This document shows, one piece after another, positions 401 through 52,963 of a DNA stretch of 64,000 nucleotides. Position 1 is the first letter of the stretch. Each line of letters starts with the position of its first letter. The stretch is from NCBI GenBank assembly GCA_017440935.1, contig JAFSAO010000014.1, positions 62,001 through 126,000 of the forward strand. Reading direction: 5' to 3'. The DNA comes from Opitutales bacterium. GTDB lineage: Bacteria; Verrucomicrobiota; Verrucomicrobiia; Opitutales; UBA953. The notes under the pieces are model-generated. The model was not told the DNA's origin, made no database searches, and saw only the letters and a program-made list of their open reading frames with translations. The position numbers and the translations under genes are program-made.

Positions 401-2605
401 TCAGAAATCGTATTTAAGCGATGCCCAGAAGCTGCGCCCGGGCTGCAGATACGTCAGATTCGGGAGTTCGTATCGTTTGTCGGTGATATTGTCGATGCCG
501 ACGGCGAGCGTAAGTTTTTCAAAAAATGCGCTCTTGTTTTTGTCGAAAATATCAAGCCCGACCGAGAAATTAAGCGTCGCCCAGCCGGATTGGCGGTCAA
601 CTTTTGTTCCGCCGGTTGCCGTATCTTCGACTTCTTCCTTGGTGGCGGAATTTCCGCGAATATTGAAATCCGCCCACCAGTCGCGATTGCTTTCGGAATA
701 GGTGGCGAGAACGCCGATTTTTCCGAAAAGTTCCGGCTGTCCGGTGTAATAGGTTGAGCCGGATGAATCGTCGAAACGACGACGCATGAGCGTGGCAACG
801 GCGTAGGGCTTAATCGTCGCATCGTTCCCGAGTTCAAAAAGGTAGGACGCGGCAAGTTCCGCCCCGAACGTTCGCGCGGAATCGTAGTTGACGAACCAGA
901 TTTGGTCGCCGATTGCGGAAGTTGTAGTGCGCGTTCCGATGTAATCGTCGGCATTTGTGTAGAAAACCGTTGCGTCGATATTCAGGTTCCCGTCGTTGTA
1001 GCGCGCACCGAGTTCGTAGCTGATGCTGGACTCGGGGTCGAGATTCGGATTGGGGTTGGTCGTCGTGCCCGCCATCGCCGAACCGATGTAGAGTTCGTTA
1101 ATCGACGCGTAGCGATATCCTTGGGCTACGGTTCCGCGAAACGTCCAATTTTCGATCTGCGAGTTTACGAGCGAGAGGGAGAACGTTGCGTTCGCATCGT
1201 CTTCGCTTTGGTTTGGAAGGATTTCGGTCGTCGTTCCCGCATTCGTTCCCGCGCGGCGGACAACATGAGACGTCCCGTCGTCAAACTCGTTTTTCACATA
1301 CGTTCCGCGGGCCCCGAGAACGAGATCCCAGCCTTCGGCAAAATTCCATTCGTCCTGTGCAAAAAGCGCGGCGGTAAGGATGTCCGCGTCGTAATCGTTC
1401 GTCCGCGTCATGTCGACGATGTAGCGATTTCCCGTCGGAAGCGTCATCCAATTTTGCGTGGCGGTTACTTCGTGCGAATCAAGTTTTACGTAGTCGATTT
1501 GCGCGCCGACAATGAGGTAGTGATCTTCCGCGATTACGAAATCCGCCTGCATTTCCGCCCCGTAGCCGTAGTGTTTGTTGCGGCGATCGGAATCAACGTT
1601 AATCGTCATCGGCGGAACAAACTGCGTGATGTCCTGAACAAAATGTTTGTCCGTTTTTTGGAAATACGCATCGACGCGGAATTTTACGAACGTCTCGGAG
1701 ATATCTTTGATTTCAAGAAAAAGACCGACCTTGTCACGATCCCAGCCCGGCAATTCCATGAAAACAAGATCGTCGCCGGAAGCGACTTCCGAACGCCCGC
1801 GAAACGACTCGATTTTGGTTCCGAAAGAAATATTTTCCGAAATATCGTAGGCGAGATACGCGCTCGTGTTTTGGAAACGATACGACGTGCGGTCTATGCG
1901 TCCGTCCGGCGACTCGATATCGCCGTGGTTTTCGTCAGAAAACGAAACCCGCGCCGCGAATCCGCCGTAACGCGCGTTCAGATCGTAATATTGGTCAAGC
2001 CCGCGTGTTCCCGTGTCGCCGCGCACGCCGACGCTCCCGTGGGCGCCTTCCTTGCCCGCTTTCTTCGTGATGATGTTGACCACGCCGCCAATCGCTTCCG
2101 AGCCGTAAAGCACGGATGCCGGGCCTTTAATGACTTCCGCACGCTCAATATCTTGAACCGACATCAGAAGCGGCGCGCCGTTCATGCCTTTGGTTTCCGA
2201 AATTTTTTGCCCGTCGACGAGAATCAGCACGCGCTGATTGCTTTCGCCGCGGATGTTGACTTGTTTGAACCCCGCCGAGCCCGTGGACTCGACTTGCACG
2301 CCGGGAACGTCGTCGAGAACGTCCGATACTGTTGCGGCGGAACTTTTCGTGATTTCGTCTCCGCTGATCACGGAAACGCTCAGCGGAACGTCTTGCAGTT
2401 CCATTTCGTGTTTGGCGGCGGTAACGCGCACCGCTTTTCCGTTTTTTGCCGTTGTTTCTGCAGATGCGGCGTCATCCGATTTTTCGGAAGCGTTTTCCTG
2501 CGCCGGGGTTGCGGAGGGCGTTCCCGTCGTTTCCTGCGCGAGGAGGGCGAGTGTCGGCAAAATTGCCGTTCCCGCGAAGATTAAGAAGGATTGTTTGAGT
2601 TTCAT
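401..2605 (-). CDS. TonB-dependent outer-membrane receptor
   Basis: A 734-residue protein with a signal peptide (residues 1-24, ending ALLAQ), a low-complexity linker, a TonB-box-like stretch (KAVRVTAAK), a plug domain (about 70-190, with NIRGESNQRVLILVDGQ and GPASVLYGSEAIGGVVNII) and a 22-strand-type barrel ending in Phe (LKYDF). It takes up an iron complex, haem, cobalamin or glycan across the outer membrane using TonB energy. The plug resembles the colicin I and haem receptor group, but the substrate cannot be read from sequence. It lies between YezD upstream and a flavodoxin downstream on the same strand, which fits metal uptake and reduction. There is no Shine-Dalgarno site before the ATG. 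Confidence 0.93.
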   Translation of the reverse strand: MKLKQSFLIFAGTAILPTLALLAQETTGTPSATPAQENASEKSDDAASAETTAKNGKAVRVTAAKHEMELQDVPLSVSVISGDEITKSSAATVSDVLDDVPGVQVESTGSAGFKQVNIRGESNQRVLILVDGQKISETKGMNGAPLLMSVQDIERAEVIKGPASVLYGSEAIGGVVNIITKKAGKEGAHGSVGVRGDTGTRGLDQYYDLNARYGGFAARVSFSDENHGDIESPDGRIDRTSYRFQNTSAYLAYDISENISFGTKIESFRGRSEVASGDDLVFMELPGWDRDKVGLFLEIKDISETFVKFRVDAYFQKTDKHFVQDITQFVPPMTINVDSDRRNKHYGYGAEMQADFVIAEDHYLIVGAQIDYVKLDSHEVTATQNWMTLPTGNRYIVDMTRTNDYDADILTAALFAQDEWNFAEGWDLVLGARGTYVKNEFDDGTSHVVRRAGTNAGTTTEILPNQSEDDANATFSLSLVNSQIENWTFRGTVAQGYRYASINELYIGSAMAGTTTNPNPNLDPESSISYELGARYNDGNLNIDATVFYTNADDYIGTRTTTSAIGDQIWFVNYDSARTFGAELAASYLFELGNDATIKPYAVATLMRRRFDDSSGSTYYTGQPELFGKIGVLATYSESNRDWWADFNIRGNSATKEEVEDTATGGTKVDRQSGWATLNFSVGLDIFDKNKSAFFEKLTLAVGIDNITDKRYELPNLTYLQPGRSFWASLKYDF

Positions 2606-2691
2606 TTATTTTCTCGTCGTATCGCGCACTCCGGTCTGTCCGGTCGCGGGCGAGAAAGTCTGTTTTTGAGGGGCTCCGTATTTCGGTGGCG

Positions 2692-2835
2692 TTATTTGGA
2701 GAGTCGGATTTTCTCCTTCACTTCGATTTGAACCACTTTTCCGTCGTGAACCACAACGGTCAGCTCGCCGAATTTCAGCGAGGCAAGCTGTTCCGTAATT
2801 TTTTCGATAATACTCGGGGAAAGTTGATTTTTCAT
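2692..2835 (-). CDS. YezD family (DUF2292) small protein
   Basis: About 47 residues, beginning MKNQLSPSIIEKITEQLASL and continuing with FGELTVVVHDGKVVQIEVKE, the hallmark of the YezD/DUF2292 family. The ATG at 2835 is preferred over the one at 2880 because family members start just before the helix SIIEKI. The family's function is unknown; it is often next to sulfur- or metal-uptake genes. Here it lies 86 bases upstream of the TonB receptor on the same strand and probably shares its transcript. Confidence 0.8.
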   Translation of the reverse strand: MKNQLSPSIIEKITEQLASLKFGELTVVVHDGKVVQIEVKEKIRLSK

Positions 2836-2960
2836 CGTCGTGTTTGCGGCAAATAAAAATGAGACTAATTCGCAAGTCAATCGGTTTTTTTTTGTTTCTC
2901 CCTAAAAAAGGCTTGCCCTCGTTTTGTAAAAATGGTTTGCTACTCAAACTTTCAACTTAT

Positions 2961-3037
<77 letters not shown>

Positions 3038-3042
3038 ATTTC

Positions 3043-3086
3043 AAAAGCCCGCAAACCCGCATAAACAAAGGGATTGCGGGCTTTTT
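3043..3086 (+). terminator. Terminator after tRNA-fMet
   Basis: Stem AAAAGCCCGCAA / TTGCGGGCTTTTT (3043-3054 and 3074-3086) followed by T-rich DNA. The same stem follows tRNA-Gly(CCC) at 15001 and, in variant form, tRNA-Ser at 8734. Confidence 0.85.
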
Positions 3087-3399
3087 CGTGTCTTTTTGTG
3101 ATTCGTCAAACACGTCCCCAAACGCCTAAGAATGCCTGTTTTTTGCAGATGATTCTCCACTTTTCTTCTTCACCGAAATCCGACATTTACACCGCATAAA
3201 TAAAAGAACTACGGGCGTTTTCTCGAATTTTTATGGAATTCTTTATCTACACGGATTTGAGAGGATAGCTTCGCTTGTGCCCACCCTGCGGTCTTTGCGG
3301 GAACGCTTTTTATGTCGGGGAAGGATGAGTGCGAAAAGGATTTCCTTTGTGCGGTAAATTTCAATTTGTTTTTGGCGGGGTGTCGTTTATGCTTGGGGG
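3087..3399. other. Non-coding gap between tRNA-fMet and the SpoU methylase
   Basis: I see no supported gene here. Bases 3087-3150 resemble 15031-15097 downstream of tRNA-Gly (CTTTTTCGTG, CGCCTAA, TTTGCAGA in the same order), which may be a scar of an element that once used this tRNA. Confidence 0.5.
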
Positions 3400-3954
3400 A
3401 TGGCACGCGCAAATTCTCATTACAATCCGGATGTTGCAATTCTCAAGCACGAGGAGGCGGATATTCCGGAGCTCGTTGAATCGCTGGGGCACGATGCGCT
3501 CGTTTTGGTGCTCGACGGGATTCAGGATCCGCACAATTTGGGCGCGATTTTGCGCACGGCGGATTGCGCGGGCGTGGATTTTGTGGTGATCACGAAGCGG
3601 CGTTCCGCTCCCGTGACGGAAACGGTGCGGCGGATTGCATGCGGTGGTGCGGAGAGCGTGCCGATTGTGCTCGCGAATAATTTGCGCAATGCGCTCGAAA
3701 AGCTGAAAGCGTGCGGCGTGTGGGTCGCGGGAACGTCCGACCACAAAACGAGCAGTTCGATTTACAATGCGAATCTGAAAGGTCCGCTCGCGATTGTCAT
3801 GGGCGCGGAAGGCGACGGGATTCGCCACCTCACGGGTGAGACTTGCGATTTTCTCGTGAGGATTCCGATGTTGGGTTCCGTGCCGTGCCTGAATGTTTCC
3901 GTGGCAACGGGCGTTTGCCTGTTCGAGGCGTTGCGCCAGCGCGGCGTGCGTTAA
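3400..3954 (+). CDS. SpoU/TrmH-type RNA 2'-O-ribose methyltransferase (RlmB-like, N-domain absent)
   Basis: 184 residues with the three knot-fold motifs of SPOUT methylases: motif 1 NLGAILRTADCAG (about 45-57), motif 2 AIVMGAEGDG (about 130) and motif 3 MLGSVPCLNVSVATG (about 154-168). These enzymes transfer a methyl group from S-adenosylmethionine to a ribose in rRNA or tRNA. RlmB itself is about 250 residues with an N-terminal L30e-like RNA-binding domain. That domain is missing here, and an in-frame stop at 3355 rules out an upstream extension. The target, 23S G2251 or a tRNA, is therefore open. A G-run abuts the ATG. Confidence 0.88.
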   Translation: MARANSHYNPDVAILKHEEADIPELVESLGHDALVLVLDGIQDPHNLGAILRTADCAGVDFVVITKRRSAPVTETVRRIACGGAESVPIVLANNLRNALEKLKACGVWVAGTSDHKTSSSIYNANLKGPLAIVMGAEGDGIRHLTGETCDFLVRIPMLGSVPCLNVSVATGVCLFEALRQRGVR

Positions 3955-3987
3955 TTTTTTTTGCGAAAAGGAGCGGGAGGAGCGCGG

Positions 3988-4818
3988 GTGCGCAAAAAGA
4001 TGGAGGAGGATGAAAACGAGGAAATTTCGTTGACGGCATCGGATTCTGCGGACGGCTCCGATGCTCGCGGGGAAATGTCGTTTTTTGAGCATTTAGAGGA
4101 ATTGCGTTCGACGCTGATTGCGTGCATTGCGGCATTTTTCGGCGCGGGAACGCTGGCGCTGGTTTTTTCGAAACAGGTTTTCGCGCTTTTGCGTCTTCCG
4201 CTGGAATGGGCAAATGTGCCCGTGGGGGAAAATCAGGCGTTGGTGGTGATGCGTTTCATGGATACGTTTTCGATTTTGCTCTACATTGCATTGTTGGGCG
4301 GAATCGTTTTGGCGGGACCGTTTGTGCTTTATCGTTTCGGGAAATTTGTTGCGCCGGCGCTGACGCGAGCGGAGTGTTCCCGCCTGATTCCTTTTTGCGC
4401 GACGGCGAGCGGGCTTTTTCTCACGGGAGCGGCGTTGGCGTTTTTTTGGCTGGCGCCGGTCTCGATTCGTCTGCCGTATTGGCTGGCGGAGCAATTCGGT
4501 TTGCAGATGAATTGGCTCGCGCAGGATTATTACCTGTTTGTCGTGGCGCTGACGCTTTTTTCGGGGTTGATGTTTGAGTTCCCGCTCGTCGTTGTTTTCT
4601 TACAGTATGCGGGTATGGTTTCTAAGGAGGCTCTACTGGAGAAATGGCGCTGGGTGCTGAGCGGAATCCTTGTGTCGAGTGTGTTGGTTTCGCCAATCGG
4701 CGATCCCGTCGTTTTGCTCGTGTTTTCCGGAGTGCTTTTTGCGCTGTATTTGGCCGCGGTTTATGTCGGTGCGTTTTTGCTGAAGCGGAAAATCAAGCGG
4801 GAAGACTCCGGTTTTTGA
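3988..4818 (+). CDS. tatC: Sec-independent protein translocase TatC
   Basis: TatC is the inner-membrane receptor that binds twin-arginine signal peptides and exports folded proteins. The motif FFEHLEELRSTL near the N-terminus is diagnostic, followed by six hydrophobic segments and the conserved FEFPLVVVFLQYAG and VSPIGDPVVLL stretches. I chose the GTG at 3988 because AGGAG lies five bases upstream; an ATG at 4000 and a TTG at 3961 are alternatives. The acidic N-terminal extension of about 30 residues is longer than in E. coli. The gene follows the methylase by about 30 bases. No tatA or tatB is nearby. Confidence 0.93.
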   Translation: MRKKMEEDENEEISLTASDSADGSDARGEMSFFEHLEELRSTLIACIAAFFGAGTLALVFSKQVFALLRLPLEWANVPVGENQALVVMRFMDTFSILLYIALLGGIVLAGPFVLYRFGKFVAPALTRAECSRLIPFCATASGLFLTGAALAFFWLAPVSIRLPYWLAEQFGLQMNWLAQDYYLFVVALTLFSGLMFEFPLVVVFLQYAGMVSKEALLEKWRWVLSGILVSSVLVSPIGDPVVLLVFSGVLFALYLAAVYVGAFLLKRKIKREDSGF

Positions 4819-4929
4819 AAAAAAAACGAAATTTTCTTGTCGGCGGAGAGGTGTCCCTCGGGAATTTCAAAAACTTCACTCCTTCGGGGCGACCGGCGAC
4901 GCTTTTGATGCGGGAGGAGAAGGTTTTTC

Positions 4930-5382
4930 GTGAAAAAGACAGGGATTTTTCAGGTGGCGGCGGTTGTCGTCACAATGTTCGCGGGAACGCTTGCCGGTTG
5001 CACAGCGGATAGGCTTGCCCGTGATATTTCAAAAGAAGATCTTCGGATTTCGGCGCATTACGAGGCGGAAACAACGCATGAAAGTGTGCGGACGGAGGGG
5101 CAGGCTACGGCTTCTTCGTGGTTGAACTTTTTGCCGTCGGCACAAGAAACGAGCGACGGGTATTACTCGGATATCGGTTCGCTTTTTTCCGGGCTTTCTC
5201 CTACGCAGTCTCTGGCGTTGCGTGCGGCGATTGCGGATGCCTGTGAGAAATCGGGCGCGGATTTTCTGCTGTTGCCGCGCTACAATATGAAAACGAAGAG
5301 CTACTGGTTTTTCTACGAGGCGGTCAGTTGTTCCGTTTCCGGGTTTCCGGTAAAAGTGGTGCGCATAAAGCGCGTTGAATGA
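4930..5382 (+). CDS. Putative outer-membrane lipoprotein, TRL-like
   Basis: 150 residues from a GTG at 4930 preceded by GGGAGGAGAAGG. A signal peptide ends in the lipobox LAGC (Cys24), so the mature protein is probably lipid-anchored. The C-terminal half (ALRAAIADACEKSGADFLLL, then SYWFFYEAVSCSVSGFPVKV) resembles the short TRL-type lipoproteins, whose role is unknown. Nothing in the neighbours points to a function. Confidence 0.6.
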   Translation: MKKTGIFQVAAVVVTMFAGTLAGCTADRLARDISKEDLRISAHYEAETTHESVRTEGQATASSWLNFLPSAQETSDGYYSDIGSLFSGLSPTQSLALRAAIADACEKSGADFLLLPRYNMKTKSYWFFYEAVSCSVSGFPVKVVRIKRVE

Positions 5383-8365: not shown

Positions 8366-8414
8366 TTCGCGGCGGCGTTTTCGTGTCGTTTTTTTTTTTT
8401 TTTACAAAAAAGTC

Positions 8415-13013: not shown

Positions 13014-13658
13014 ATGAAAAAGCTTTTTAACAAACTTATCGGGAAAGACGATCGGTTTTTCCGCCTTCTGGAATCCGCCGCCGAAGAAGCGCACAATTCC
13101 GCGCTGATTTTGGAAAAACTTTACGAAGAAGCCGGCGGAACTTCCGGATTTGAAAAAACGCTCGAGGCTCTGAATATTTCACGAAAAAAGGAAAAAAAAC
13201 TCGTTCTTGTTATTTCCGAGCGGCTTTGCACGACGTTTTCGACGCCGATTGACCGTGAGGACATTGAAGCGCTTGCCAACGCGCTTTCCCGCGTTCCGAA
13301 AGGAACGTATAAAATCGGCGAACGTCTTTCCATTTGTCCGGAACAATTCGCATCCGATATCATCAAAAAACAAATCTCCATGCTAACCCGTGCGACGGAA
13401 ATCGTCGTCCGCATGACGGGAACGCTCCGTGCGATTAAGGATGTGGAGCTGATTCAAGATGACTACGAACTCGTGCAAACGATTGAGGGCGATGCGGATC
13501 GCCTCATGGTTTGCCTGTTGCGGGATTTGTATCAGGGGAACGTTTCCGCGAAAGAAGTCATTATCCTCAAAGATATGTATGAACTTCTTGAAGCAACGAT
13601 TGACCATTGTCGGGATGCGGCGAAGGTTGTTTTTCAGGTCGCGCTGAAGTATTCGTAA
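13014..13658 (+). CDS. DUF47 family phosphate-transport accessory protein (PhoU-like)
   Basis: 214 residues, all-helical, starting MKKLFNKLIGKDDRFFRLLE, with the typical late motif KDMYELLEATIDHCRDAAKV. DUF47 proteins are cytoplasmic partners that act on Pit phosphate transporters, and the pit gene lies 81 bases downstream, which supports the call. A hairpin built on CGGGAACG sits between the two genes. There is no strong Shine-Dalgarno (CTCCTC before the ATG). Confidence 0.9.
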   Translation: MKKLFNKLIGKDDRFFRLLESAAEEAHNSALILEKLYEEAGGTSGFEKTLEALNISRKKEKKLVLVISERLCTTFSTPIDREDIEALANALSRVPKGTYKIGERLSICPEQFASDIIKKQISMLTRATEIVVRMTGTLRAIKDVELIQDDYELVQTIEGDADRLMVCLLRDLYQGNVSAKEVIILKDMYELLEATIDHCRDAAKVVFQVALKYS

Positions 13659-13675
13659 AAATTACGGAGAATAAA

Positions 13676-13713
13676 ACGGGAACGGAAATTCCTGAAATTT
13701 TCTTCGTTCCCGT
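13676..13713 (+). promoter_or_regulatory. Intercistronic hairpin between the DUF47 gene and pit
   Basis: ACGGGAACG at 13676-13684 and CGTTCCCGT at 13705-13713 form a 9-bp inverted pair with a second small repeat (GGAAATTCC) in the loop. There is no T-tract directly behind it, so it may tune expression of pit or stabilise mRNA rather than terminate. Confidence 0.6.
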
Positions 13714-13739
13714 GTGTTCATTCCTGATTTTTTATTTCC

Positions 13740-14867
13740 ATGACAATTTTCCTCATCGTTTTGTTTGCCGCGTTGGTGTTTGAATACATCAACGGTTTTC
13801 ACGATTCGGCAAATGCAATTGCGACATCGATTTCAACGAAGGCGCTCACGCCGCGCACGGCAATTATGCTCGCCGCCGTGATGAATTTGCTCGGTGCGCT
13901 TTGGGGGACGGCGGTCGCGAAAACGATTTCCGAAGGCTTAGTCGATGCGATAGCCGTTAATATGCACGTTATCGCGGCGGCGTTGATGTCCGGCATTACC
14001 TGGAATCTGATTACCTGGTGGTTCGGAATTCCGTCCAGTTCTTCGCACACGCTTATCGGATCGCTCTGCGGGAGCGCTCTCGCGAAGACCACGGAGGCGG
14101 ATTTTCCGGCGATTGCTGCGGCGGCAAATCACGCGCTTCCCGCCGGATATTTGCCGGGAGATATCGATTGGAGCGTGCTGTTCTGGTCGATTGATAACGG
14201 GACAAAAGGGCTTTGGCCGAAACTCGTTATGCCGATGCTCCTTGCTCCCGTTCTCGGATTCTTTTTCGGAATGTTGGTGATGTTTTTGTTTTTCATCATC
14301 TTTCGCAATCGAAAGCCGGCAATGGTGCAATACGTTTTCCGGAAACTCCAAATCATCTCCGCCGCGGGGATGGGTTTTGCGCACGGGACTTCCGATGCAC
14401 AAAAAACGATGGGGATTATCACGCTCGCGCTTGTGGCGGGAACGACGTCCGGGGCTTTTGTCAGTAATCCGGAGTGGCTCGGTTTTCTCAATCTTGCCGA
14501 GGGGGCTGACGTTCCCGTGTGGGTAAAAATCCTCTGCGCAATCGTCATGGCGGCGGGAACGGCAGGCGGCGGCTACCGTATTATCCGAACGATGGGGCAC
14601 AAAATGACGAAACTCCTGCCCGTAAACGGCTTTGCCGCCGAACTGACTTCCGCGACGGTGCTTATCGGAACGTCCCAGCTCGGAATGCCTGTTTCCACGA
14701 CGCACGTCGTATCGTCGTCAATCATGGGGGTCGGTGTCGCCAAAGATGTGCGCCGCGTAAATTTTTCGACGATTACGCGTATTCTTTGGGCGTGGACGCT
14801 TACGCTTCCCGTTTCCATGTTTCTCGGCTACGGAATCTATAATGCAATCGTTTGGCTGCTTCCGTGA
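13740..14867 (+). CDS. pit: Inorganic phosphate transporter, PiT family
   Basis: 375 residues, about ten membrane segments, with the two inverted PiT signatures: GFHDSANAIATSISTKALTP near residue 20 and GMGFAHGTSDAQKTMGI at about 210. It couples phosphate (as metal-phosphate) uptake to a proton or Na+ gradient in the inner membrane. The repeat SSSHTLIGSLCG and VSTTHVVSSSIMG segments are also family hallmarks. It is preceded by its DUF47 partner. Confidence 0.94.
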   Translation: MTIFLIVLFAALVFEYINGFHDSANAIATSISTKALTPRTAIMLAAVMNLLGALWGTAVAKTISEGLVDAIAVNMHVIAAALMSGITWNLITWWFGIPSSSSHTLIGSLCGSALAKTTEADFPAIAAAANHALPAGYLPGDIDWSVLFWSIDNGTKGLWPKLVMPMLLAPVLGFFFGMLVMFLFFIIFRNRKPAMVQYVFRKLQIISAAGMGFAHGTSDAQKTMGIITLALVAGTTSGAFVSNPEWLGFLNLAEGADVPVWVKILCAIVMAAGTAGGGYRIIRTMGHKMTKLLPVNGFAAELTSATVLIGTSQLGMPVSTTHVVSSSIMGVGVAKDVRRVNFSTITRILWAWTLTLPVSMFLGYGIYNAIVWLLP

Positions 14868-14874
14868 AATTTTG

Positions 14875-14903
14875 TTGCACAGCCCGGGCGGGAACGCTAA
14901 ACT
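14875..14903 (+). promoter_or_regulatory. Promoter of tRNA-Gly(CCC)
   Basis: TTGCAC at 14875-14880, a 17-base spacer that itself contains GCGGGAACG, and TAAACT at 14898-14903. Confidence 0.7.
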
Positions 14904-14921
14904 CGTCTCTTGAATTTTATC

Positions 14922-14996
14922 GCGTTTGTCGTATAACGGCTATTATGTGACCTTCCCAAGGTTGAGACGAGGGTTCGACTCCCTCCAGACGCACCA
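14922..14996 (+). tRNA. tRNA-Gly (CCC), integration target
   Basis: 75 bases with encoded CCA. The acceptor GCGTTTG pairs with CAGACGC (one G-U), the anticodon loop is TTCCCAA, and the T-loop is TTCGACT. Its 3' end from 14969 is repeated at 19281-19323, so this tRNA is the attachment site of the downstream island and remains intact. Confidence 0.95.
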
Positions 14997-15012
14997 CTTT
15001 AAAAAGCCCGCA
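14969..15012 (+). repeat. attL of the tRNA-Gly island
   Basis: The last 28 bases of tRNA-Gly plus 16 bases beyond it match 19281-19323. Bases 14982-15012 are identical to 19293-19323 over 31 positions. The remaining 12 bases (GAGGGTTCGACT) match across a single-base gap. The right-hand part also forms the first arm of the tRNA terminator. Confidence 0.88.
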
Positions 15013-15101
15013 TAAATAAAAGGATTGCGGGCTTTTTCGTGCCTTTTGCAGTCTCTCGAAAACGTCAGAAGACGCCTAAAAACGCCTATTTCTTGCAGAG
15101 A

Positions 15102-15121
15102 TTTTTGCTATTTTTTTGCTA
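15102..15121 (+). promoter_or_regulatory. Candidate integrase arm sites, left end
   Basis: TTTTTGCTA occurs at 15102-15110 and again at 15113-15121, an 11-bp period. The matching pair at the right end is at 19227-19246. Confidence 0.45.
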
Positions 15122-15778
15122 TGGCTTAAAACGTTGCCAATTCCTTTATTTATCTGAGTTTCAGCGCACCAATGCGCGAAATTTTGGTAAGTGAAATTTG
15201 CGCCGTTTTTGCTAATGGATTTTAAGGGGCGTTTAGAAGGTTTTCGACGCAAAGGCTTGTTAAGAAATCGCGATAAATAAAGGGATTACTTAGGAGAGAC
15301 TTAAGGAGTGAGCTGGATTTCTCTTAGGGAATCTCTTCGGAAATATGCAACAAAAAGGTCGATTTTTCGTTTATAATTGCCCCTCTTGTTCGGGCTTGGA
15401 GGTTCCTTCGTCTTTAAAAGGACAGTCTTTGAGGGTAGGAAGAGAGTTGGAACGGTTAACTCTCATGCCCTCCAAGGCTGATATTTCCTAGGATTGTTTA
15501 ATATTTCCCTCCTAAAATGAGAGTATGAGAGTTGAAAAGTGAAAAAAAATAAAAAAGATTATTAAGAGAGGATTAAGAAATTAAGAAAAGAAGGCGTTCC
15601 TACTCTCACACTCTCATTTGGAAGTTTTTTGGGGGCTCCTTAACTTTAAGGGAGAGGGGCAGTTGCCTACTCCTTCCCTAATAATGCCAGACGGACAAGC
15701 GGCGCAAGCGAACTAAACATCCAACTAGACGGGCCCATAATCGTACAAAACACCCGCTAAAATCGCTTGAAATAGGGC
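15122..15778. other. A+T-rich non-coding stretch with inverted 8-bp tandem repeats
   Basis: I find no supported gene in these 650 bases. ATGAGAGT occurs twice in tandem at 15517-15532, and its complement occurs twice in tandem (ACTCTCAC, ACTCTCAT) at 15602-15617, with another single copy AACTCTCAT at 15458. Such an arrangement suggests protein-binding iterons or a long-loop hairpin. There are no CGGGAACG copies. Confidence 0.6.
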
Positions 15779-15809
15779 TTGACTCTTCTCGGGGGGGGGG
15801 GGGCAAAAT
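15779..15809 (+). promoter_or_regulatory. Promoter with a 13-G tract in the spacer (PEP-CTERM gene 1)
   Basis: TTGACT at 15779-15784, 19 bases that end in thirteen consecutive Gs (15791-15803), then CAAAAT at 15804-15809. It has the same spacing and layout as the promoters at 16710, 52933 and 61258, where the tract is T. A start near 15816 would give a short leader to the ATG at 15835. Confidence 0.6.
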
Positions 15810-15834
15810 GAAGCGAAGATACAAGCAAGTAACA

Positions 15835-16620
15835 ATGAAGAAGTATATTGTCATATCGGTATTACCGTTTGTCGGATTAACGAATCTCTGCGCAGCTGTT
15901 TATACATGGACGGGGGATGCAGGAGATGGACTTTGGGGGACCTCGGCGAACTGGGATTTGGATAACGGATATTATCCGCAGTCGGGTTCTGACACGGCTG
16001 TTATCGGAGAGAATGCAGGAACGATTGTTTGGTCAGCGGGACAAAATTATTTCGGGGCGACTCATGAGATTACGCTCGAAAAGAACTCTGAAATACTTTG
16101 TCAATTGGGCGGAGGAACGGGCGATTTGTATTTCGATATACTGAATCTTTACGGAACTTTCTCTGCAGAGGGAACCAATGCTTTGGGATTTCAGCGTGAT
16201 TTTACCGTAAATTTCGGAAATATTACGGAATCATCATCAGGCTTATTAGATTTCAGCGGATTCACGGGGCTGTTGTGGGTAAACAACCACACTGTAACTG
16301 TGACAGCAAATGCAAGCGTAAAGGGCTCCGGCGAGATTGAGCTAGTTAAGCTTGCCGGAAGCCTTGCCGGAGGAGCCGTTACGTTTGGTACAGAGGATAT
16401 TAGAGTTTTAGATTCGAATGGGAATCCTCTTGTGTTGAACACAGACGCTTCATCCACTGAAGATTTGGCAATGGGCGAGTATGCGCTTGTTTCGTCTGCC
16501 GCAGGAAATGGAGGAGTAAAGATTCTTTACGCAGCTCCGGTCCCCGAACCCTCGGCGTTTGGTATGCTTGCGGGGCTTGGTGCTCTTGCACTCGTGGCTT
16601 CGCGTCGCCGCCGCAAATAA
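15835..16620 (+). CDS. PEP-CTERM sorted surface protein 1 (autotransporter-type repeat)
   Basis: About 261 residues from ATG 15835; the ATG at 15808 overlaps the predicted -10 and is rejected. A signal peptide (MKKYIVISVLPFVGLTNLCA) is followed by YTWTGDAGDGLWGTSANWDL, which resembles the W-x-G-x-G repeats of autotransporter passengers. It ends with VPEPSAFGMLAG, a hydrophobic segment and RRRRK, the PEP-CTERM signal cut by exosortase (gene not in the window). The predicted location is the cell surface or extracellular matrix. The body is A+T-richer than the core genes and lacks CGGGAACG, while the C-terminal signal is nearly identical to that of the other three PEP-CTERM proteins here. Confidence 0.85.
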   Translation: MKKYIVISVLPFVGLTNLCAAVYTWTGDAGDGLWGTSANWDLDNGYYPQSGSDTAVIGENAGTIVWSAGQNYFGATHEITLEKNSEILCQLGGGTGDLYFDILNLYGTFSAEGTNALGFQRDFTVNFGNITESSSGLLDFSGFTGLLWVNNHTVTVTANASVKGSGEIELVKLAGSLAGGAVTFGTEDIRVLDSNGNPLVLNTDASSTEDLAMGEYALVSSAAGNGGVKILYAAPVPEPSAFGMLAGLGALALVASRRRRK

Positions 16621-16653
16621 TTTCAGTGATATATTAATTCATATATAGATTGG

Positions 16654-16688
16654 CGTTCCCGTGGGGTTTTCTCACGGGAACGTTTTTT
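16654..16688 (+). terminator. Terminator formed by an inverted CGGGAACG pair
   Basis: CGTTCCCGTG (16654-16663) and CACGGGAACG (16673-16682) form a perfect 10-bp stem with a 9-base loop, followed by TTTTTT. Confidence 0.92.
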
Positions 16689-16709
16689 CAATATTTGTGA
16701 AAAAAGTGC

Positions 16710-16740
16710 TTGCAAGGGCACTTTTTTTTTTTGCGAGAAT
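16710..16740 (+). promoter_or_regulatory. Promoter with an 11-T spacer tract (PEP-CTERM gene 2)
   Basis: TTGCAA at 16710-16715, 19 bases containing T11 (16722-16732), GAGAAT at 16735-16740. Nearly superimposable on the promoter at 52933-52963. Confidence 0.6.
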
Positions 16741-16836
16741 CGCTACCAAGAATTGAGACACTTGGGCGACACGGTCGTTCCCGCGCGTTTCTCTTCTTTT
16801 AACCTACAAGTTTTAACAACAAACATCATCATTATT

Positions 16837-17667
16837 ATGAAAAAATATATTACAGTCGCGGCACTCCTCGCCGCAGGAAGTGCTTTCGCTAATGCCGAAG
16901 AGATTACCCTTCGATACGAAATTTCGGTGTTTGACGGGGGAAGTAAAAATTCTGCAACAAGCCCTGGACAAACCTCTATTGGTTGTAATGGTTATGTCAA
17001 TTGGACGACGGAGTACTCAGATATTTCAGGAAGTGGAAAGCAGGTCGCAAACCTTCAGGGTAATGGACATTTCTACATCAATGGAGAATCTGGGATTAGT
17101 GTAAAAGATGACACCGTTTTAAACACCGTAGATGGATTCACACTTGTGTTTAATGGATATGCCGTAGCAAATTGGGCTGACTTTCTGAGTGTTACTATTG
17201 GCGGGACTCAATATAAGTTTGAGTCTACAGATTCCAATAGTGTTGCTGTTTACTCTCCAACGGGGGTAGAGAATAATGTAACAGAGCTTGGAAAGGTTTC
17301 TGGCGTTAGTAAAAACACTTGGTACAACTATGCTCTTTCTGTCTTGGGAACATCGTATACTTACAGTGCTTGGGACGCAGCAGGGAATAAGGTTGGTTCC
17401 CTAACTTTTGAGGGCGCGTCGGGAAATCTTACAGATGTCTATGAAGGGTCTCGTTTTAGTCAACATTGGTATGGAGGGGCTCTTGACAATGTCGGTTTGT
17501 ATGACGGCGCTCTTGGTGATAAGGAGCTTAAAACGCTTGTAACAAGTGAAGCTAGCGGGAAGGGCATGGTTCAGAGTTTTTCGATTGTTCCCGAGCCGTC
17601 CACGTTCGGTCTGCTCGCGGGGCTTGGCGCATTGGCGCTCGTTTCTTCACGCCGCCGCCGTCGCTAA
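16837..17667 (+). CDS. PEP-CTERM sorted surface protein 2 (LamG-like)
   Basis: About 276 residues from ATG 16837. A signal peptide (MKKYITVAALLAAGSAFANA) precedes a beta-rich domain. Its end, HWYGGALDNVGLYDGALGD, is typical of concanavalin/LamG-like jelly-roll folds that often bind sugars. The C-terminus VPEPSTFGLLAG, hydrophobic stretch and RRRRR is the PEP-CTERM export tag. The leader has TTTTAAC twice, ending 19 bases before the ATG, and no Shine-Dalgarno. The body is A+T-rich and free of CGGGAACG, consistent with its place in the island. Confidence 0.87.
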   Translation: MKKYITVAALLAAGSAFANAEEITLRYEISVFDGGSKNSATSPGQTSIGCNGYVNWTTEYSDISGSGKQVANLQGNGHFYINGESGISVKDDTVLNTVDGFTLVFNGYAVANWADFLSVTIGGTQYKFESTDSNSVAVYSPTGVENNVTELGKVSGVSKNTWYNYALSVLGTSYTYSAWDAAGNKVGSLTFEGASGNLTDVYEGSRFSQHWYGGALDNVGLYDGALGDKELKTLVTSEASGKGMVQSFSIVPEPSTFGLLAGLGALALVSSRRRRR

Positions 17668-17687
17668 GACTTTTAAAGCTTAACAAT

Positions 17688-17725
17688 AAAAACGCTTCAC
17701 TGAAGAAACTCAGTGAGGCGTTTTT
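17688..17725 (+). terminator. Terminator after PEP-CTERM gene 2
   Basis: Stem AAAAACGCTTCACTGA / TCAGTGAGGCGTTTTT with a 6-base loop and one mismatch. It does not use the CGGGAACG motif. Confidence 0.88.
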
Positions 17726-17863
17726 ATTTGGGATTGTGCTTCCCCCTGCAATTTTTCCCTCTATACAGAGAACCCTATAGGAACTCGTGAGGCATTCCCG
17801 TGGTTCTTATAAACCAGTTCCTGACACAACCCCTTAAAAACCTCTTCTGCGCTCGGGGCATCG

Positions 17864-18085
17864 TCATACCGCATCCGTTCCCGGAGCTGTATGGAATTTA
17901 CCCCGACCTAGCGGCAGTGCCGGCTCTAATTCGTAGCTATGCGGATGTCTTAACCATTCTTCGCTGTATTCAAATCCGGACGAACCTTGTCGCTTATGAT
18001 GAATCCACAGCGTGCCCACGCGAATGCTATCCGTTCCCGCGCCCAATAAATCGGTGTAAACCCCTATTTCCGTATCATTTGTCAT
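17864..18085 (-). pseudogene. hipA N-terminal fragment (toxin kinase remnant)
   Basis: 73 residues on the minus strand: VYTDLLGAGTDSIRVGTLWI, then FEYSEEWLRHPHSYELEPAL and PLGRGKFHT. This is the N-terminal subdomain of HipA-type Ser/Thr kinases, which inhibit translation by phosphorylating aminoacyl-tRNA synthetases. Full HipA is about 400-440 residues, and the kinase core with its catalytic Asp is missing. The frame stops right after the HT position. It overlaps the upstream HTH gene by 11 bases in the usual hipBA order. I judge it a dead toxin. Confidence 0.75.
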
Positions 18086-18395
18086 AGCGCTTATTTACTA
18101 TGTTTTTCGGCATTCGATCTGCTTCCAACCCTAAGCCTACGGCATCATGCCGCGCATCAAACGCATCACTTAGTCGCTCGAGCAACCCCAGTGCAAAAAT
18201 GACCGACGCGTAGCTACTCGCGGAAACTCCCGCATCTCCTTTTTCTATGCGGTAGAGCGTTGCTCTCGATATCCGGGCGCGCTCTGCCAGCGTTGTTGTA
18301 GATATGCGCCGCCGACGACGTGCATCGCGCAAATCGCTTCCAACCTTTTTCAGTGCGGCTTCCGCTTTCGGATATAATGCCCAGCGTTCTTTCAT
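18075..18395 (-). CDS. HipB-like XRE-family transcriptional repressor
   Basis: 106 residues with a helix-turn-helix at about 20-75 (LRDARRRRRISTTTLAERAR, then ISRATLYRIEKGDAGVSASS). In intact hipBA modules HipB binds operators, represses the operon and neutralises HipA. Here the hipA partner is reduced to 73 residues, so the protein may persist only as an orphan regulator. A perfect 15-bp inverted repeat 10 bases upstream of the start is its likely operator. Confidence 0.8.
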   Translation of the reverse strand: MKERWALYPKAEAALKKVGSDLRDARRRRRISTTTLAERARISRATLYRIEKGDAGVSASSYASVIFALGLLERLSDAFDARHDAVGLGLEADRMPKNIVNKRYDK

Positions 18396-18404
18396 AAAAT
18401 AGAA

Positions 18405-18457
18405 AATGTCTCATATCTGCATAAAAAACAAGAATTTTTAATCAGATATGAGACATT
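18405..18457 (-). promoter_or_regulatory. Probable operator/promoter of the hipB-like gene
   Basis: AATGTCTCATATCTG (18405-18419) and CAGATATGAGACATT (18443-18457) are perfect inverted arms around a 23-base A+T-rich spacer, just upstream of the repressor ATG at 18395. The layout fits two operators flanking a promoter. Confidence 0.7.
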
Positions 18458-18467
18458 GTTGTTGCGC

Positions 18468-18719
18468 TTAACTGAGAGGATTCCCCTTGGCAGAGCTCGG
18501 TCGTTTCTTTTCAACGTTGTCATAATCGATCGTATTTGTTGGTCGGGAAAAGTTTTCGCCCCCGTGAGTGAAATTTCTTGGTACGGGGACTTTATAAGTT
18601 CCACCCAAGCTCATAGACGTGGACTTTTCCGGTATGGCGTAGATAAGTTGTTCCCGTTCATGCATTTGCGACATCGATTTTAAGGATGGCGTTGTTTTGT
18701 CTTGCTCCGTCTTTGCCAA
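18468..18719 (-). CDS. Doubtful small open frame downstream of the integrase remnant
   Basis: 83 codons beginning MAKTEQDKTTPSLKSMSQMH. It overlaps the end of the integrase frame by 62 bases and has no recognisable domain. It could be a small island gene or chance; I list it only because the stretch 18460-18657 otherwise holds nothing. Confidence 0.2.
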   Translation of the reverse strand: MAKTEQDKTTPSLKSMSQMHEREQLIYAIPEKSTSMSLGGTYKVPVPRNFTHGGENFSRPTNTIDYDNVEKKRPSSAKGNPLS

Positions 18720-19188
18720 CAGCTAACGCTTCTCCACGGGAACGATCAAACGGAATTACTTTACCGTCTCCTGTCGGAGGTATGATGTTGAAATAGTCCT
18801 TTGCGTCCTGCTTAGAAACAAGATTTCGATAATTCGCGCCCTGTGTTCTCAGGCTATGCCCGCAATAATCGGCGGCTTGTTGAAATCCGTGCAAGACGGC
18901 AAGGCACGAAACGGCGGTGTGCCGGAAAACATTTTTTTCGATTTTTCCGACGGCGTTTTTCTTCGCCTTGCGGGCGGCTTCGTTTGCCTTGGCGTATTCT
19001 TCAACATCGAAAAAGCGCTTTCCCTCTTTTCCGTTTGCTACCTTTCGGCGCAGTTCCAATTTGTTAAGGCGCTTCACGAAATAAACGGCGGCGAATTTCC
19101 CGCGCTCCAAACCTAACCAACCGCGCCCGGATTTAACGGCGGGGATATGTTCAAACTCTTTGCCAATTTTTACGCGCTTTTCTGCCAT
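18658..19188 (-). pseudogene. Truncated tyrosine recombinase (island integrase)
   Basis: 176 residues. The C-terminal catalytic part is clear: VFRHTAVSCLAVLHG (Arg89), YCGHS (His111) and GANYRNLVS (Tyr120, the nucleophile position). A working tyrosine integrase needs about 300-400 residues, with a first catalytic Arg and a beta-hairpin Lys that I cannot find. The first 80 residues (GRGWLGLERGKFAAVYFVKR and after) look like an N-terminal portion joined directly to the catalytic end, suggesting an in-frame internal deletion. It lies next to attR, the usual integrase position. About 45 residues follow the Tyr region. Confidence 0.75.
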
Positions 19189-19226
19189 ACTTCGCCGCTA
19201 TGCGCCACGGCTTGCCCTCGCAAGAC

Positions 19227-19246
19227 TTTTTGCTAAATTCTTGCTA
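19227..19246 (+). promoter_or_regulatory. Candidate integrase arm sites, right end
   Basis: TTTTTGCTA at 19227-19235 and TTCTTGCTA at 19238-19246, again 11 bp apart, mirroring the pair at the left end. Confidence 0.45.
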
Positions 19247-19280
19247 CTTTTATTAAGTTCTTTTGTTTATTAGGTTTTTG

Positions 19281-19323
19281 GAGGGTTCGACTCCTCCAGA
19301 CGCACCACTTTAAAAAGCCCGCA
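19281..19323 (+). repeat. attR of the tRNA-Gly island
   Basis: Copy of the tRNA-Gly 3' end and the following terminator arm; 31 bases are identical to 14982-15012. The repeat lacks the rest of the tRNA, so it is not a gene. Confidence 0.88.
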
Positions 19324-19473
19324 AGCCCGCATAACGAGAAGTTCTGCGGATTTTTTTGTTTTTTGGTGAATAAAACTTGCGGCGAAAAAGAAAAAATATT
19401 GCGCATGGTTTTTTGCGTCAGTAATTTTTCCCCGCGCATGAAAAATCCCCGAATTTCTTCTCAAAAAACATCA

Positions 19474-21429
19474 ATGAAAAATCAACTATTGCTTCTTGCC
19501 GTGGGCTTGTCCGCGTTTTGCGCGGGAACGGCAACGTTGTCCGCCGCACCGAAGAAATCGGATGCTCCCGTGAAGTTTGAATTTGCGGTGAATCCGCAAA
19601 ACCCGCAGGACGGGATTTTCGTGCTGAACGGAAAGCCGTTTCAGATTCGCGGAGGGGAAATCCACCCGCAGCGCATCCCGCGCGAATACTGGGATCACCG
19701 CATCAAAATGTGTAAGGCGATGGGGCTGAACACGATCGCATTTTACACGATGTGGAATGACTTCGAGCAGGCGGACGGGTCGTTTGATTTTAAAACGGGA
19801 AATCGAGACATCGCGGCGTTTCTTCAGCTTTGCCAAGATAACGGAATGTGGGTGCTTTTCCGCCCGGGACCGTATGTTTGCGGCGAATGGGATTTCGGCG
19901 GACTTCCCGCGTATTTGCTCAAAGAAAAAGACGCAAAAATCCGCACGGTTAAGGACAAAAATTTCATGAAGGCGCAGACGCGCTACCTCAAGGCGATTGC
20001 CGAGGTCGTCAAACCGTTCCGCGCGCAAAACGGCGGTCCGATTCTGATGACGCAAATTGAAAACGAGCACGGAAGCTGGCCGCGCAAAGATCCGGAATAT
20101 CTGCGTTGGTTGAAGGATTTTTGGACGAAACAGGGCTTTACGCCGATTTATATGTCCGACGGCGCGGGAGACCACTTTCTGCGCGGTATGATTTATCCGG
20201 ACAAGGATGTTTGCATCGGGCTCGATCCGGGGCAAAACGATAACGCGTGGCGTGTGGCAAACAAATACAATCCGGGCGTTCCCGTGTTTTCCTCGGAAAC
20301 GTATCCGGGCTGGTTGCGTCGCTGGGGCGAAGGCAACTGGTCGCCGACAAATCTTTCCGGAAGCATCAAGTGGTATATGGAAACGGGGCGTTCGTTCAGC
20401 GTGTTCCCGGTGCACGGCGGAACGAATTTCGGCTTCACCGCGGGAGCGAACAACGACCCGCGCACGGGCGGCGATTACCACACGGATTTGACGAGCTACG
20501 ACTACGGTTCGCCGATTAACGAACAGGGCAATCCGACCAAGGAATATCATCAATACCGCGAAATCATTCTCAACGGGCTCGACGCAGCCGAAAAGAAAAC
20601 CGTTCCCGCGATTCCGAAACCGATTCCCGCGATGGAAATCAAGGAGTTTACGCCGAAATTTTTTGCGCCTATCAGTAGCAATACCGAAAAACTCAAAAAC
20701 GGCGGAAAGTTCAAGGATGCGCCGTATTTCGAAGCTTTCGGACAAAATCAGGGAATCGCGTTTTACCGTACGGAAATCCCGACAGGGGCGGCGGGAACGC
20801 TCGATTTTGACGGGCTTCATGACTACGCTCACATTTACATCGACGACAAATTTATCGCCGCCGTTGACCGCCGGATGAAAAAAGCACCCGTCGCCGTTCC
20901 CGCCCGCGAAAAGCCTGCGACGCTCACGATTATGGTCGAAGGCATGGGGCATATCAATTACGGGAAGGGCATGGAAACCGACCGCAAAGGCATTGTCGGC
21001 GACGTGCGTTTAGACGGGAAAGCGCTGAAAAATTGGACCGTGATTCCGAAAACGCTTTCGGAAAAATCCGTTTGCAAAGACGCAAAGTCGGTAAAATTCA
21101 ATTTGAACGGCGTGCTCGGCGGACATTTTCGCGGGGAATTTACGCTCTCAGAAGTCGCGGATACGTTCCTTGATATGTCGAAGTGGGGCAAGGGCGTGCT
21201 TTATGTCAACGGACACAATCTCGGGCGCTACTGGAGTTCCGACCTCAACGGCAAGCCCGTCGGTCCGCAGCTTCGCTTGTATTGCCCGGCTCCGTTCCTG
21301 AAACGCGGGAAAAACGTGGTCGATGTCGTCGAATTTGAGCTTTCCGAGCCGCGTCCGATTCGCGGTTGCGTCGAGCGCAACTACGACATGAACGACGTCA
21401 AAACGAAGAACCTGAACAATCAGTGGTAA
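19474..21429 (+). CDS. Secreted glycoside hydrolase family 35 beta-galactosidase
   Basis: 651 residues from ATG 19474, chosen because a signal peptide (MKNQLLLLAVGLSAFCAGTA) follows. The (beta/alpha)8 domain carries GGEIHPQRIPREYWDHRI, FRPGPYVCGEWDFGG, TQIENEHGS (acid/base Glu) and SSETYPGW (nucleophile Glu), the hallmarks of GH35. C-terminal beta-sandwich domains end with VLYVNGHNLGRYW, the usual jelly-roll. It removes terminal beta-galactose from host or plant glycans in the periplasm or outside. It lies directly after the island attR and 5 bases before hemE, an unrelated gene. Confidence 0.93.
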   Translation: MKNQLLLLAVGLSAFCAGTATLSAAPKKSDAPVKFEFAVNPQNPQDGIFVLNGKPFQIRGGEIHPQRIPREYWDHRIKMCKAMGLNTIAFYTMWNDFEQADGSFDFKTGNRDIAAFLQLCQDNGMWVLFRPGPYVCGEWDFGGLPAYLLKEKDAKIRTVKDKNFMKAQTRYLKAIAEVVKPFRAQNGGPILMTQIENEHGSWPRKDPEYLRWLKDFWTKQGFTPIYMSDGAGDHFLRGMIYPDKDVCIGLDPGQNDNAWRVANKYNPGVPVFSSETYPGWLRRWGEGNWSPTNLSGSIKWYMETGRSFSVFPVHGGTNFGFTAGANNDPRTGGDYHTDLTSYDYGSPINEQGNPTKEYHQYREIILNGLDAAEKKTVPAIPKPIPAMEIKEFTPKFFAPISSNTEKLKNGGKFKDAPYFEAFGQNQGIAFYRTEIPTGAAGTLDFDGLHDYAHIYIDDKFIAAVDRRMKKAPVAVPAREKPATLTIMVEGMGHINYGKGMETDRKGIVGDVRLDGKALKNWTVIPKTLSEKSVCKDAKSVKFNLNGVLGGHFRGEFTLSEVADTFLDMSKWGKGVLYVNGHNLGRYWSSDLNGKPVGPQLRLYCPAPFLKRGKNVVDVVEFELSEPRPIRGCVERNYDMNDVKTKNLNNQW

Positions 21430-21434
21430 AGGCG

Positions 21435-22463
21435 ATGACTTCGCGGGAACGTTTTTTGGCGGCGTGCCGCTGTGCTCCGACGGATCGCGTTCCCGCGTGG
21501 GTCATGCGGCAGGCCGGGCGTTATTTGCCCGAATATCGTGCGCTCAAGGAAAAATACGATTTTCTCACGCTTGTGCGCACGCCGGAGCTCGCCGCCGAGG
21601 TGACGCTCCAGCCCGTGCGGCGTTTCGCTCAGCTGGACGCGGCGATTTTGTTTAGCGACATTCTCACAATTCCGGAAGCGCTCGGGCAGGGCTATTCTTT
21701 TTGCGAAAGCGGCGGTATCGCGATGGATTTTATACTGGATTCGGAGGAAAAACTTGCGGCGCTCGGTGCGGCGGCAGACGTTCCCGCGCGGCTCGATTAC
21801 ATGGCGCAGGCAATGCGGTTGGCGCGTGCCGAACTCGGGGAAGGGCGAGCGTTGCTCGGGTTCGCGGGTTCGCCGTGGACACTCGCCGTTTACATGGTGG
21901 AAGGCGGAAGCGCCAAACAATTTTCAAAAATCAAACGCTTGGCTGCGGAAGCTCCCGCGCTTTTTGATGCGTTGATGGAAAAACTTGCGGACGCCGTTGC
22001 CGCATCGCTCAAAATGCAAATTGCCGCCGGTGCGGATGCCGTCCAAATTTTCGATTCGTGGGCGGCGCTCTGCACGGCGGGAGAATACGAAAATTTGTCT
22101 TTGCGTTGGATCCGCAAAATCATTGCCGCACTCCCGGCAGGTGTTCCCGTCATTGTTTTCGCCAAAGGCATGGCGCATCTGGCTCCGCAAATTGCGGCGA
22201 CGGGAGCGAGCGTGCTCGGCGTGGATTGGACGCACAAACTTTCCGATATTCGCAAACTCGCGGGAACGCAACTCGCGTTGCAGGGAAATCTTGATCCCGT
22301 TGTTCTGAGTTTTTCCGACGAAAAAATCGTGCGGGAACGCACGCGGGAAATTTTGGACGATATGCGCGGCGAGCGCGGACACATCTTCAATCTCGGACAC
22401 GGAATTTTGCCCGACGCCCGTCCGGAAAATTTTGCCGCCATGCTCGATGTGTTGGCGAGCTGA
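21435..22463 (+). CDS. hemE: Uroporphyrinogen decarboxylase
   Basis: 342 residues beginning MTSRERFLAACRCAPTDRVP, with PAWVMRQAGRYLPEYR (substrate-binding Arg residues) and GFAGSPWTLAVYMVEGG and the C-terminal NLGHGILPD. It removes four acetate carboxyls from uroporphyrinogen III in haem synthesis. The start at 21435, five bases after the GH35 stop, fits family length. No other hem gene is nearby, so co-transcription with a galactosidase looks accidental. Confidence 0.96.
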   Translation: MTSRERFLAACRCAPTDRVPAWVMRQAGRYLPEYRALKEKYDFLTLVRTPELAAEVTLQPVRRFAQLDAAILFSDILTIPEALGQGYSFCESGGIAMDFILDSEEKLAALGAAADVPARLDYMAQAMRLARAELGEGRALLGFAGSPWTLAVYMVEGGSAKQFSKIKRLAAEAPALFDALMEKLADAVAASLKMQIAAGADAVQIFDSWAALCTAGEYENLSLRWIRKIIAALPAGVPVIVFAKGMAHLAPQIAATGASVLGVDWTHKLSDIRKLAGTQLALQGNLDPVVLSFSDEKIVRERTREILDDMRGERGHIFNLGHGILPDARPENFAAMLDVLAS

Positions 22464-22529
22464 GGTCGGCTCGCCAATGGCGGTTTTTAAATAGCGAATC
22501 CCGAACGAACAACTTCGGGCGGTTCCCGT

Positions 22530-52932: not shown

Positions 52933-52963
52933 TTGCCGAGTCGCTTTTTTTTTTTGCGAAAAT
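52933..52963 (+). promoter_or_regulatory. Promoter with an 11-T spacer tract (coiled-coil protein)
   Basis: TTGCCG at 52933-52938, 19 bases containing T11 (52945-52955), GAAAAT at 52958-52963. The segment CT11GCGARAAT is shared with 16721-16740. Confidence 0.6.

Follow-up and report, generated by a model that had tools for sequence, protein, structure and literature searches.

Does the run of guanines immediately upstream of a surface-protein gene in this genome set how strongly that gene is transcribed? The run lies in a 64-kb stretch of DNA (64,000 nucleotides, hereafter the window), and the initial annotation described it as the longest G tract there, located in the promoter of PEP-CTERM gene 1 and inside an island. 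The window sequence agreed with the first of these statements. Positions 15791-15803 of the forward strand hold thirteen consecutive Gs (G13), the next-longest G runs are of 6 nt, with all lengths from 1 to 6 present, C runs reach a maximum of 6, and G13 is the sole G or C run of at least 7 nt. Geometric extrapolation of the run-length distribution gives an expectation of about 0.0001 runs of at least 13 nt in 64 kb. The longest homopolymer of any kind in the window is a T15 at 8389-8403, which separates the end of a gene from a tRNA cluster. With a probability of roughly 0.7, we favor the explanation that G13 is a variable spacer in the promoter of gene 1, that slippage in it tunes transcription, and that the locus belongs both to a genome-wide set of contingency loci and to a promoter family of the genus.

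The following elements were assigned around the tract:

15734-15778, forward strand: region upstream of the -35-like hexamer, with homology to promoters of PEP-CTERM genes in sister species G001 (model search)
15779-15784, forward strand: -35-like hexamer TTGACT (from sequence; TTGAC is conserved in the G001 promoter family)
15791-15803, forward strand: G13 tract, within a 19-nt spacer between the -35-like and -10-like hexamers (from sequence)
15804-15809, forward strand: -10-like hexamer CAAAAT, directly 3' of G13 (from sequence; most G001 relatives have TARAAT)
15835-16620, forward strand: PEP-CTERM surface-protein gene 1, 261 aa, with a signal peptide, an orphan mature domain and a PEP-CTERM anchor (PF07589)

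The layout TTGACT-CTTCTC-G13-CAAAAT leaves 6 nt between TTGACT and G13 and places a G/C mononucleotide tract between two putative promoter hexamers. At 19 nt, the spacer falls outside the 16-18 nt allowed in a generic sigma-70 scan, which therefore missed this site; with those shorter spacers, the number of sites in the window was no higher than in shuffled sequences. A sigma-54 promoter was also considered and was rejected by reasoning, as the distance between GG and GC departs from the consensus.

Gene 1 likely starts at the ATG at 15835, as had been proposed, because its translation from there, MKKYIVISV..., resembles the signal peptides that begin MKKYIT.. in other PEP-CTERM proteins and because the upstream ATG at 15808 overlaps the CAAAAT hexamer, in agreement with its earlier placement inside a predicted -10. 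This start codon is 31 nt downstream of G13 and 25 nt after the end of CAAAAT. The encoded protein carries a PEP-CTERM C-terminal signal (Pfam PF07589, 25.8 bits against a cut-off of 20.7). Its mature part matched itself alone among the 144 PEP-CTERM proteins from the fetched loci, and full-length homology with a G001 protein (contig C11) was therefore rejected, the two sharing their ends only. An exosortase is present in all eight genomes of the genus; in the window's own genome (G000; 1.84 Mb, 22 contigs), it is encoded at C7:117642-118610 (PF09721, 120.8 bits).

Gene 1 was found to lie within an island of 4.3 kb (window 14969-19323) that adjoins the 3' end of a tRNA-Gly(CCC) gene and consists of the following parts in addition to those above:

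14922-14996, forward strand: tRNA-Gly (anticodon CCC), the integration site of the island (ARAGORN)
14969-15012, forward strand: left att-like direct repeat, which spans the tRNA 3' end and the bases after it (local alignment with 19281-19323)
16710-16740, forward strand: promoter of gene 2, TTGCAA-N6-T11-GC-GAGAAT, spacer 19, with the T-type sister architecture (from sequence)
16837-17667, forward strand: PEP-CTERM gene 2 (Pfam PF07589, 24.9 bits)
18075-18395, reverse strand: XRE-type helix-turn-helix protein (HTH_31, 34 bits)
18658-19188, reverse strand: possible C-terminal remnant of a tyrosine recombinase, beside the right repeat (by eye)
19281-19323, forward strand: right att-like direct repeat (local alignment with 14969-15012)

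The repeats match at 43/44 nt, with one gap in 44 alignment columns. In the closest relative, G005, the site is empty and the flanks of the island are adjacent, with window 13500-15000 aligning to 528-2031 and window 19281-22464 to 2000-5182 of the G005 stretch; the pit and GH35 proteins of G005 are about 95% identical to those of the window. A repeat that includes the tRNA 3' end, together with the empty site of G005, marks the element as a tRNA-integrated island and bears out the initial annotation on this point. Within it are the two PEP-CTERM genes, the helix-turn-helix gene and the 176-aa ORF at 18658-19188, for which Pfam, PHROGs, NCBIfam and PDB sequences gave no match; by eye, a motif in it suggests a possible C-terminal remnant of a tyrosine recombinase. 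Both sides of the acceptor stem of the tRNA-Gly(CCC) differ from those of the relatives in the alignment.

The promoter of gene 1 appears to have kin in sister species. In five of nine G001 promoters, 24-28 of the 45 bases upstream of the -35 are identical to the window in ungapped alignment, a similarity reached by 0/2000 shuffles in each case; the other four, with 7-19/45, showed no convincing similarity to the window promoter in this region. A model trained on sequence alone, from the window promoter and the five matching G001 promoters, then identified a site outside the training set, in G007, with an E value of 5.4e-7. This site also precedes a PEP-CTERM gene, and it has T11 where the window has G13. 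Weaker matches, down to an E value of 1, occurred in 27 of 38 genomes and are mostly due to chance. In sister species, related promoters before PEP-CTERM genes carry a G tract in the corresponding position, which supports the earlier assignment of G13 to the promoter of gene 1. The window promoter is apparently part of a family of spacer-homopolymer promoters that serves PEP-CTERM genes across the genus.

The PEP-CTERM regions covered were 49 of the 52 matches in the window's own genome (C3:9013, C16:77409 and C6:57423 were left out), 12 of 42 in G001 plus two further regions, and 8 of 25 in G002. Fifteen of the 49 regions carry a spacer homopolymer in the arrangement TTG[A/C]-short stretch-homopolymer-xAxAAT; 14 of these tracts are T10-T11 and one, that of gene 1, is G13, and the spacer is exactly 19 nt in 10 of the 15, among them gene 1. 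Across 57 genomes, a strict T-type pattern was found 10 times in G000, five times in G003, four times in G005 and once in G007, all of this genus, was absent from the other 53, and gave 0 control matches; by comparison of positions, 9 of the 10 sites in G000 precede PEP-CTERM genes. The T-type family, TTGCAG-N6-T11-GC-GAGAATC, is represented by 43 distinct copies in the fetched loci, many of them before PEP-CTERM genes. Besides the copy at 16710-16740, the window has one at 52933-52963, where the ORF downstream has a signal-like start but is not of the PEP-CTERM type. An inverted repeat surrounds the -35 in some T-type copies, and a covarying hairpin at this place was rejected when 120/2000 arm shuffles reached the observed pairing.

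The strict TTGAC-polyG pattern gave seven sites in the same 57 genomes, all in G001, where two further promoters bring the number to nine. In eight of the nine, a PEP-CTERM ATG lies 30-42 nt downstream, and one is not before a PEP-CTERM gene. The tracts of these eight are G6, G7, G7, G8, G8, G8, G9 and G10, with spacers of 13-18 nt. Tract length therefore differs among homologous promoters, from G6-G10 in G001 to G13 in the window, the comparison being between paralogs and across species rather than between strains. Two PEP-CTERM genes of G006 are preceded by TTGACG-N-G8/G9. In G000, a locus on contig C22 (L166:4291-4313) has a second TTGAC site with a mixed T9-G10 tract about 220 nt upstream of a PEP-CTERM gene, and this gene has its own T-type promoter.

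These promoters bear on whether tract length matters at all. G13 could slip and yet leave expression of gene 1 nearly unchanged if the homopolymer were no more than a spacer, structural or tolerated, which is what the T10-T12 tracts of the sister promoters appear to be. The T-type promoters are consistent with this, since they hold T10-T12 with mostly 18-19-nt spacers over the 43 distinct cases, G13 yields the same 19-nt spacer, and the corresponding position in the G007 homologue is occupied by T11. Against it, the G-type promoters span G6-G13 with spacers of 13-19 nt, and the fetA promoter of Neisseria meningitidis changes strength over a comparable range (8-14 C; PMC13293289). Tract-length spread differed between G-type and T-type promoters (Levene p 0.003) and spacer-length spread did not clearly differ (p 0.055), with both samples cut by the search patterns, whose cut-offs shape the length ranges. 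We regard a length-insensitive spacer as unlikely, though it is the strongest competitor to a spacer that tunes transcription.

Another conceivable reading places the promoter elsewhere and gives the G tract a role within the leader or as a DNA- or protein-binding element. The scan for canonical sites with 16-18-nt spacing found none at gene 1, as this idea would predict, but in both G000 and G001, PEP-CTERM genes with short leaders have the tract flanked by TTGAC and an A-rich hexamer, and TTGAC with a G tract recurs in G006. A promoter elsewhere is quite improbable, about half as credible as a tolerated spacer.

Returning to G13 as a variable spacer, the rest of the genome was searched for tracts of the same kind. 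G000 holds 16 G/C runs of at least 8 nt and 13 of at least 9 nt, where extrapolation from the window predicts about 8.4 and 1.7; runs of at least 13 nt number four against 0.003 expected. Many of the tracts are in capsule-type genes. The contexts include a glycosyltransferase, a two-domain ATP-grasp protein, a PLP-enzyme, PglD-type and hexapeptide acetyltransferases and a polysaccharide pyruvyl transferase, as well as nitroreductase-like, Wzy_C-like and Fic-domain ORFs; tracts on contigs C16, C19 and C20 have a less clear context. In two EcoRI-type adenine methylases, a tract follows shortly after the start codon, and both genes are out of frame as assembled (L160:2893-4226 on C6, with C14, and L161:2293-3464 on C15, with G10); these are candidate phasevarions. 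A polysaccharide-type cluster on contig C4 (L157:4621-11310) contains four G/C tracts and has counterparts in G003 (C14) and G005 (C40); parts of it are nearly identical in G003, with flanks of 97-99% identity, and differ in tract length. At another locus, in G005 (L227, C35:48120-50430), G11 and G12 tracts lie close together, one of them in the arrangement TTGAC-polyG-TAATTT before an ORF that by eye resembles a restriction-specificity subunit.

Orthologous tracts were compared by means of 400-nt flanks in the fetched loci, nearly all of which are from the genus, with one assembly per species. G006 contributed few loci, because many of its poly-G tracts sit at contig ends and were excluded from the regional fetches. 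Six of the seven groups of coding tracts found at the same position in two or three species differed in length, although homopolymer assembly error could contribute noise to these lengths. The ATP-grasp tract has 14, 12 and 10 nt, with the 14- and 12-nt forms lying between flanks that are 98.0 and 99.5% identical; the PLP-enzyme tract has 14 nt versus 15 and 14 in a local duplication in G003, and versus 8; the others have 11/10/10 (PglD), 11/9 (hexapeptide transferase), 9/10 (pyruvyl transferase) and 8/11 (C19 locus). The nitroreductase-like tract is unchanged at 9/9/9. Flanks of some divergent tracts are 97-99% identical, and this variation in length between conserved flanks agrees with the earlier remark that long G runs are prone to slippage. 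That G13 is itself a sequencing or assembly artefact is very improbable: poly-G at contig ends, typical of two-colour Illumina artefacts, occurs in G006 and some other assemblies, and exact assembly lengths are uncertain, but G13 is internal, 77.8 kb into a 178.7-kb contig, with continuous flanks, and other genomes contain homologues of the promoter and orthologues of the tracts.

From these observations, we infer that the hexamers act as a promoter, that the length of G13 itself is variable and that expression depends on the spacing. Replication slippage would add or remove Gs in G13, and the distance between the -35 and the -10, 19 nt in the assembly, would shift one base at a time. Each change would raise or lower transcription of gene 1 in individual cells, giving a graded form of transcriptional phase variation, and the protein would be exported and then anchored through the exosortase system. 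The locus would be one of the poly-G/C contingency loci that the genome appears to hold in capsule-type genes and DNA methylases. G13 is thus probably a slippage-driven dimmer switch for a surface protein, as judged from sequence. The length that would be ON depends on the spacing taken as reference. The textbook spacing of 17 nt predicts ON at about G11, and the 18-19 nt usual for T-type sister promoters would make G13 itself the ON state; those spacers, and the 13-15 nt of five of the eight G001 PEP-CTERM promoters, are all off the textbook value.

A broader scheme is tentative, and we rate it somewhat below even odds. T tracts would give fixed and G tracts switchable expression at the same position of a common promoter, each gene would have an independent tract, islands would import switchable copies, and slippage across the paralogous family would produce a combinatorial surface coat. 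If slippage does tune these promoters, tract lengths in metagenome reads would directly report the surface heterogeneity of these commensals, and gene families of unknown regulation would become testable.

The closest known systems are in Neisseria meningitidis. The polyG tract of porA is located between the -35 and the -10. Repeat number sets graded expression in both porA, where the polyG tract was studied with immunoblots (PMC6735796), and fetA, where 9C and 10C give high, 11C intermediate, and 8C and 12-14C low expression (PMC13293289). Gene 1 is likened to them from its sequence: it has a mononucleotide G/C tract in the putative core promoter of a surface-protein gene. It belongs to a different phylum from porA and fetA, and its product is a PEP-CTERM protein that is anchored by exosortase and has an orphan mature domain; the design is repeated before many paralogous genes with one tract each, and T and G tracts occupy the same place in homologous promoters.

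Within the same phylum, slippage in mononucleotide repeats was proposed for Akkermansia muciniphila, which likewise has long homopolymers in capsule genes as well as PEP-CTERM proteins; in the accessible part of that report, the tracts are inside genes and none is described in a promoter spacer or linked to PEP-CTERM (PMC3048395). Titles and the opening lines of abstracts of the open-licence papers retrieved gave no description of promoter-spacer tracts in Verrucomicrobiota. The two methylases of G000, with G/C tracts near the start and out of frame, resemble phasevarions and are loci separate from gene 1. Spacer-slippage phase variation of transcription is known mainly from host-restricted pathogens and has so far been proven mainly in pathogens. 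Two relatives with a stated source, both metagenome-assembled genomes, came from the rectum of a sheep and of a water deer. A gut genus of Verrucomicrobiota appears to repeat a slippage design over an exosortase-anchored family, beside poly-G switches of the capsule and methylase types, in what is apparently a family-wide promoter design like that of porA and fetA.
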